Positions 22,686 to 25,774 of a DNA stretch of 36,053 nt are shown here, piece after piece; the stretch's first letter is position 1; every line of letters begins with the position of its first letter. The notes beneath the pieces are model-generated. The model was not told the DNA's origin. It saw only the letters and a program-made list of their open reading frames with translations, and did no database searches. Source of the DNA: Microcaldota archaeon. Lineage in GTDB: Archaea > Micrarchaeota > Micrarchaeia > Anstonellales > J096. The translations under genes and the position numbers were made by a program. Location of the stretch: contig WAMF01000001.1 in the NCBI GenBank assembly GCA_015522475.1, forward strand, positions 1 through 36,053. Reading direction: 5' to 3'.

Positions 22686-22806
22686 GCAGGGGTCGCCAAG
22701 TCTGGTCAACGGCGCCGGACTCAAGATCAACGCCAGCTTAAAACAAAGCTGGAAATGGGAGATCCGGTCCCAAGTGGGTTCGTGGGTTCAAATCCCACCC
22801 CCTGCA
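22686..22806 (+). tRNA. tRNA-Leu(CAA) with 36-nt intron
   Basis: The gene is 121 nt; mature tRNA is 85 nt. Acceptor GCAGGGG/CCCCTGC, D arm GCC...GGC, anticodon stem CCGGA/TCCGG with loop CTCAAGA and anticodon CAA. The long variable arm (CCC AAGT GGG) is typical of leucine tRNA. T arm GTGGG/CCCAC. The discriminator is A and CCA is not encoded. The intron sits between positions 37 and 38 at 22726-22761. Positions 34 and 39 are the predicted targets of the sRNA at 25717. Confidence 0.95.
22726..22761 (+). other. tRNA-Leu intron with canonical bulge-helix-bulge
   Basis: A canonical 37/38 intron. CUCA (positions 32-35) pairs with UGGG (22756-22759), including one G:U, to make the 4-bp helix. It is flanked by identical 3-nt bulges AG|A at both splice sites (22724-22726 and 22760-22762). 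The interior has a 7-bp stem CCAGCTT/AAGCTGG. The intron begins ATC, the same three bases as the start of exon 2. Confidence 0.85.
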
Positions 22807-25691: not shown

Positions 25692-25698
25692 TTTTAAA
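25692..25698 (+). promoter_or_regulatory. TATA-like box for the box C/D sRNA
   Basis: TTTTAAA is centred at 25695, about 24 nt before the predicted sRNA 5' end near 25718-25721. There is no ORF that it would otherwise serve. Confidence 0.55.
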
Positions 25699-25716
25699 CA
25701 TTTCTCTTCTGTCTTC

Positions 25717-25774
25717 TATACGTGATGATCACCGGATCTTCTGATAAGTGATGACGATCTTGAGTGCTGATATA
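25717..25774 (+). ncRNA. Box C/D sRNA, predicted to guide Cm34 and Um39 in tRNA-Leu(CAA)
   Basis: All four boxes match consensus: C GTGATGA (25722-25728), D' CTGA (25741-25744), C' GTGATGA (25748-25754), D CTGA (25767-25770). Each guide is 12 nt, the standard archaeal spacing, and D' to C' is 3 nt. The ends TATA and TATA can close a terminal stem. The D' guide (TCACCGGATCTT) pairs over 10 contiguous bases with AAGAUCCGGU of spliced tRNA-Leu(CAA), and the fifth base from D' faces U39. The D guide (CGATCTTGAGTG) pairs over 10 bases with ACUCAAGAUC, and the fifth base from D faces C34, the wobble base. In archaea L7Ae, Nop5 and fibrillarin load such RNAs for 2'-O-methylation. The targets are my prediction. 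Confidence 0.88.

Follow-up and report, generated by a model that had tools for sequence, protein, structure and literature searches.

The window, that is, the whole 36,053-nt stretch of DNA that was analysed (contig WAMF01000001.1 of a Microcaldota archaeon), carries an intron-containing gene for tRNA-Leu(CAA) and, separately, a sequence with the boxes and guides of an archaeal box C/D sRNA. This locus raises two questions: whether the RNA would guide the methylation of C34 and U39 of that tRNA, and whether its substrate would be the spliced tRNA or the unspliced precursor.

A putative dual-guide sRNA and its tRNA

A sequence-only reading had described four consensus boxes and two 12-nt guides at this locus, and our inspection of positions 25722-25770 confirmed this arrangement (Table 1). 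The boxes follow the archaeal form (RUGAUGA for C and C', CUGA for D and D') in the order C-D'-C'-D and are conserved across relatives. The guides are of the usual length (approximately 12 nt), place a target base at N+5 within duplexes of 10 bp each, inside the range of 8-10 bp, and covary with their targets among relatives. This was the sole four-box match of its kind in the window when both strands were searched. A short terminal stem is possible between UAUA at 25717-25720 and UAUA at 25771-25774, and the TATA-like element listed in Table 1 is a possible candidate for the sRNA's own promoter; a TTTATA/TTTAAA-like element also lies 26-34 nt upstream in many of the homologs. Rfam models described the site as archaeal C/D-like, with sR3 (RF01133) as the best match (31.4 bits, E 3e-6, against a gathering score of 41), and no C/D family reached its gathering threshold. 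A fibrillarin gene is present in the window's genome.

Table 1. Features of the sRNA locus and of tRNA-Leu(CAA), in window positions
Feature	Position	Strand	Basis or remark
Possible TATA-like element TTTTAAAC	25692..25699	+	~29 nt upstream of box C
Whole sRNA	25717..25774	+	Sequence; ends of the mature RNA putative
Box C, GUGAUGA	25722..25728	+	Sequence; kept in homologs
D' guide UCACCGGAUCUU, 12 nt	25729..25740	+	Fifth base from D' faces U39 of tRNA-Leu(CAA)
Box D', CUGA	25741..25744	+	Sequence
UAA spacer between box D' and box C'			Sequence
Box C', GUGAUGA	25748..25754	+	Sequence
D guide CGAUCUUGAGUG, 12 nt	25755..25766	+	Fifth base from D faces C34 of tRNA-Leu(CAA)
Box D, CUGA	25767..25770	+	Sequence
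tRNA-Leu(CAA) 5' exon	22686..22725	+	Rfam tRNA match; boundary from BHB motif; C34 = 22722, G37 = 22725
tRNA-Leu(CAA) intron 37/38, 36 nt, starts AUC, ends GAG	22726..22761	+	BHB helix
tRNA-Leu(CAA) 3' exon	22762..22806	+	A38 = 22762, U39 = 22763
Pre-tRNA site paired by D guide	22719..22728	+	A31 to third intron base
Pre-tRNA site paired by D' guide	22759..22768	+	Last three intron bases to U44

The tRNA-Leu(CAA) gene at 22686-22806 is genuine (Rfam tRNA match, 42.8 bits), and ARAGORN misses it because of its intron. A bulge-helix-bulge (BHB) motif sets the splice sites: CUCA at positions 32-35 pairs with UGGG near the end of the intron, and the bulges are cut at AG^A and AG^A. On the mature tRNA, the D guide makes 10 contiguous base pairs from A31 to position 40, and the D' guide makes 10 from A35 to U44. 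These pairings agree with the earlier claims that both guides match the anticodon arm of this intron-containing tRNA and that C34 and U39 stand opposite the fifth bases from D and D', respectively, within ten pairs. That reading missed the repetition of AGAUC at both splice junctions of the pre-tRNA, by virtue of which both guides also make 10 bp with the unspliced precursor. Since the guides fit the spliced and unspliced forms equally (10 bp each), the window alone cannot show which is the target, and the case for precursor targeting rests on relatives.

Distribution of the sRNA in the Micrarchaeota

The C34 half of the sRNA (UGAUGA, a guide with UCUUGA, and CUGA) was present in 122 of the 301 genomes of the phylum Micrarchaeota, and a reversed-pattern control gave no match in the same 301 genomes. 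With a relaxed C34-guide pattern, 45 of the 84 genomes of the order were positive and the reversed-pattern controls were again zero. In each of the three species of the window's genus, the same MFS gene is found downstream of the sRNA. A collection scan with a TCTTCTGA-type pattern returned 14 archaeal MAGs, 12 of them titled Micrarchaeota; the other named records were one labelled Micrarchaeaceae and one Marsarchaeota. The TCTTCTGA-type sRNAs are C34 guides only, since their D' guide misfits U39 wherever the tRNA was matched.

Searches for the dual guide as such recovered the window only, both with a strict pattern that kept the window's exact stem bases (among 99 genomes) and with a looser pattern (among 84 genomes); such strict patterns miss relatives because the guides of each sRNA follow their own tRNA. 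The pattern CTTGAGN{1,3}CTGA was too noisy across the whole order, and its four-genome version gave the homologs in G001, G002, and G003. Our first pattern for tRNA-Leu(CAA) missed most genomes because the D arm differs. Matches running from TCAAG to the T arm in families f13 and f17 were considered as tRNA-Leu and rejected; they are introns of tRNA-Ser(UGA).

Several neighboring features were recorded during these searches. In at least 27 genomes, mostly of family f17 with a few of f13 (L151-L182, L004, L010, L015), 1-14 nt separate the end of the C34-guide sRNA from the start codon of a small gene of the archaeal-histone/TAF-like type, so that the sRNA would serve as its leader. Just downstream of the sRNA in L248, L251, L253, L258, L259, L261, and L268, the 3' half of the C34 guide (AUCUUGAGUNCUGA) recurs as one or two additional near-copies, and in G002 (L282) the homolog is immediately followed by another box C/D-like sequence, GUGAUGA-CUGGCGAGAACG-CUGA. 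The tRNA-Ser(UGA) introns of f13 and f17 (L082, L083, L084, L289-L302, L305-L308) contain UCAAGAG-CUGA as an invariant element and, 2-10 nt beyond it, UGAUG, which is a D'/C' layout; U34 of the same tRNA falls at N+5, and guide position 8 often tracks base 37 (C with G37, U with A37). This layout points to a possible guide for Um34 of tRNA-Ser that is encoded in the intron.

Covariation of the guides with the exon-intron junctions

Among 28 intron-bearing genomes, the ten-pair C34 duplex can be formed with the pre-tRNA in 25, versus 15 with the mature tRNA. Positions 9-11 of the D guide track the first intron bases over five states (AUC, AUA, AUU, GUU, and GCA), and of the 19 sites that are informative, the guide pairs with the intron base at 15 and with the exon base at 6. 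A permutation test gave p ~5e-5, and p ~3e-4 after thinning to approximately one genome per genus (the window's genus kept three genomes and g8 two); both values are approximate because the relatives share ancestry and are not independent. The third intron base varies (C, A, or U) and the mature C40 is invariant; guide position 11 tracks the former, being G for C, U for A (genus g11), and A for U (genus g17). An intron starting with GUU in G002 is accompanied by the D guide AACCUUGAGU, and one starting with GCA in G003 by UGCCUUGAGU. For G003, the precursor was predicted from the sRNA before the tRNA was read, as ACUCAAG^GCAU and ..AU^AUC (^ marks the junction). The tRNA that was then found reads ACUCAAG^GCAG and GGGAU^AUCUGGU, in agreement with the prediction at both junctions: intron bases one to three are as expected at the 5' junction (the fourth differs), and so are the final two at the 3' junction.

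The same sRNA could instead act on the mature, spliced tRNA-Leu(CAA), in which case its pairing with the intron would be incidental. The 10 bp that each window guide makes with the mature form are compatible with this explanation, as is the C34 guide of intronless lineages, which would act on an uninterrupted anticodon arm, and the D guides of G015, G024, G032, and G078 pair equally well or better with the mature form. G032, G078, and G024 are the three genomes in which the ten-pair duplex with the precursor does not form. The D guides of G032 and G078 fit the exon and not the intron start as assigned, in introns that are unusually long (81 and 110 nt) and may be compound or misassigned; in G024, one outer pair is missing with either form. 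The 81-nt intron of G032 (L220) resembles an extra insertion before a normal f5-type intron, and if this insertion were a second intron, the D guide would fit once it had been removed. Action on the mature tRNA is nevertheless unlikely, since the D guide mismatches the mature tRNA and fits the intron in G002, G003, and the g11 and g17 genomes, and since the junction bases of the D' guide behave in the same way.

A D' guide of the U39 type, pairing with positions 38-42 of the 3' exon, was found in 13 genomes of five families, which were picked on exon positions only, with the intron left unused. In these genomes, all 26 possible pairs between guide positions 2-3 and the last two bases of the intron are formed, versus 11 of 26 with A36-G37 of the mature tRNA; shuffling gave an expectation of 11.5 pairs, and none of 20000 shuffles reached 26. 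The last two intron bases lie in the splice bulge, outside the adjacent helix, and vary (AG, AU, AA, UC, CC, and CU). The guide also covaries with the 3' exon, as with U9 opposite A43 in G010. The boundaries of the D' guides were read by eye in the 26 order genomes scored, and the tRNA of G010 was entered by hand. The target of preference for both guides is therefore most likely the unspliced precursor, because the guide positions that lie over the junctions follow the intron.

The two halves differ in distribution. The D' guide is aimed elsewhere in half of the intron-bearing relatives examined, and none of the 38 genomes without a 37/38 intron in tRNA-Leu(CAA) has a U39 guide, which indicates that the U39 half goes with the intron; the idea that this guide is universal was dropped on the same count. 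On the sequences at hand, only lineages that have the 37/38 intron carry the U39 half, and elsewhere the sRNA is predicted to be a C34-only guide. The sequence-only reading had expected the guides to follow the tRNA in relatives: this holds for the C34 guide in nearly all relatives with the intron and for the U39 guide in 13 of 26. One might thus suppose that the C34 guide alone is functional and that the match to U39 is a relic, given that the C34 guide is far more widespread and that the D' guides misfit U39 in f5, in most of f8, and in all parsed f13 and f17 genomes. We consider this quite unlikely, since a relic would not keep the covariation with the 3' exon and with the end of the intron that is seen across the 13 genomes. 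As separate observations, the D' guides of f5 (CGAGGUAUUG; L242-L247) and of genus g19 in f8 (GCAAUACCU; L251-L257) are mutual reverse complements over 9 bases, and the tRNA-Leu(CAA) genes of f13 and f17 (L090-L135), which have no 37/38 intron, mostly carry a short T-loop insertion resembling a T-loop intron.

Both duplexes span the bulges that are cut by the endonuclease, which could mean that the sRNA controls the splicing of tRNA-Leu(CAA) by antisense pairing at the two splice sites and that methylation is secondary. The exact N+5 placement at known methylation positions and the retention of the C34 guide in genomes that lack the intron make this very unlikely and argue that methylation is the selected function. 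A fortuitous match to the tRNA, or a C/D-like sequence without function, in whose favor the Rfam score below the gathering threshold might be cited, is hardly credible and is already contradicted by the phylum-wide recurrence with zero reversed-pattern controls, the synteny, the guide-target covariation, and the successful prediction in G003, so that the original judgement that chance matching was very unlikely stands.

Predicted action and known guide systems

We propose that the free-standing sRNA at 25717-25774 would be expressed, assemble into an RNP, and pair with both exon-intron junctions of pre-tRNA-Leu(CAA). Its D guide, lying over the 5' exon and the intron start, would direct fibrillarin to 2'-O-methylate C34, and its D' guide, lying over the intron end and the 3' exon, would direct it to 2'-O-methylate U39. 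Duplexes of 8-10 bp are described as best for methylation in the part of PMC7089733 that cites Yang 2016, and the 10-bp duplexes of the window agree with that optimum. Methylation would most likely precede splicing, because each duplex of ~10 bp opens the anticodon stem and the BHB motif. Taken together, these data suggest that the sRNA very probably methylates C34 and U39 of the unspliced tRNA-Leu(CAA) as a dual guide, most likely before splicing. The comparative evidence thus supports the earlier proposal, in which a free-standing gene supplies in trans a dual guide for C34 and U39 of tRNA-Leu(CAA), and refines it in that the precursor is the likely target and that the U39 half appears only in lineages with the 37/38 intron. 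More tentatively, and as somewhat less likely than not, we suggest that binding of the sRNA might block splicing until both C34 and U39 are methylated, a methylate-then-splice checkpoint that would be kept by guide-intron co-evolution.

In many archaea, among them Haloferax volcanii and other Euryarchaeota, the tRNA-Trp intron is itself a box C/D guide for C34 and U39 of the tRNA that contains it (Clouet d'Orval 2001, Singh 2004, as described in PMC7994747 and PMC2584109). Because the guides for pre-tRNA-Trp and pre-tRNA-Met base-pair with a portion of the intron, methylation must take place before splicing (PMC2584109). As described in these papers, the tRNA-Trp guide resembles the window sRNA in being a dual C34/U39 guide for one tRNA, in its N+5 geometry, and in its pairing with the precursor, for which the timing in the window is a prediction; it differs in sitting in the intron of its own target, whereas the window sRNA (25722-25770) is a separate gene ~2.9 kb from tRNA-Leu(CAA) (22686-22806). 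A Pyrococcus C/D sRNA predicted for C34 of tRNA-Leu(CAA) (PMC7994747, PMC7668247) is, compared by description, likewise free-standing and aimed at the wobble base of the same tRNA; the portions of these reports that describe it name C34 only and mention neither a U39 guide nor intron pairing. The sR49-type sRNA of haloarchaea and Pyrococcus, which targets C34 of pre-tRNA-Met, also lies outside the intron, pairs with part of it, and acts before splicing (PMC2584109), but addresses one tRNA position, in tRNA-Met instead of tRNA-Leu(CAA). The tRNA-targeting C/D sRNAs of Pyrobaculum are archaeal guides directed at tRNAs as well and differ in having, according to the summary of Lui 2018 in PMC7994747, one guide for a tRNA and another without a target. 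A non-exhaustive search of the literature gave no report of a free-standing dual C34/U39 guide for tRNA-Leu(CAA) or of a free-standing dual guide that reads both splice junctions. C34 guides for tRNA-Leu(CAA) and guides that pair with the introns of pre-tRNA-Trp and pre-tRNA-Met are known; what appears to be new is their combination.

In tRNA-Trp the intron itself guides the pair of C34/U39 methylations; in a largely uncultured phylum of archaea, a separate gene apparently directs this pair to another tRNA as well. The covariation of guide and intron provides evidence, from sequence alone, that the guide would see the unspliced precursor, and such pairing could help to explain a constraint on the bases at the junctions of a tRNA intron. 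The sRNA and pre-tRNA-Leu(CAA) form a clear system for studying the order of modification and splicing.
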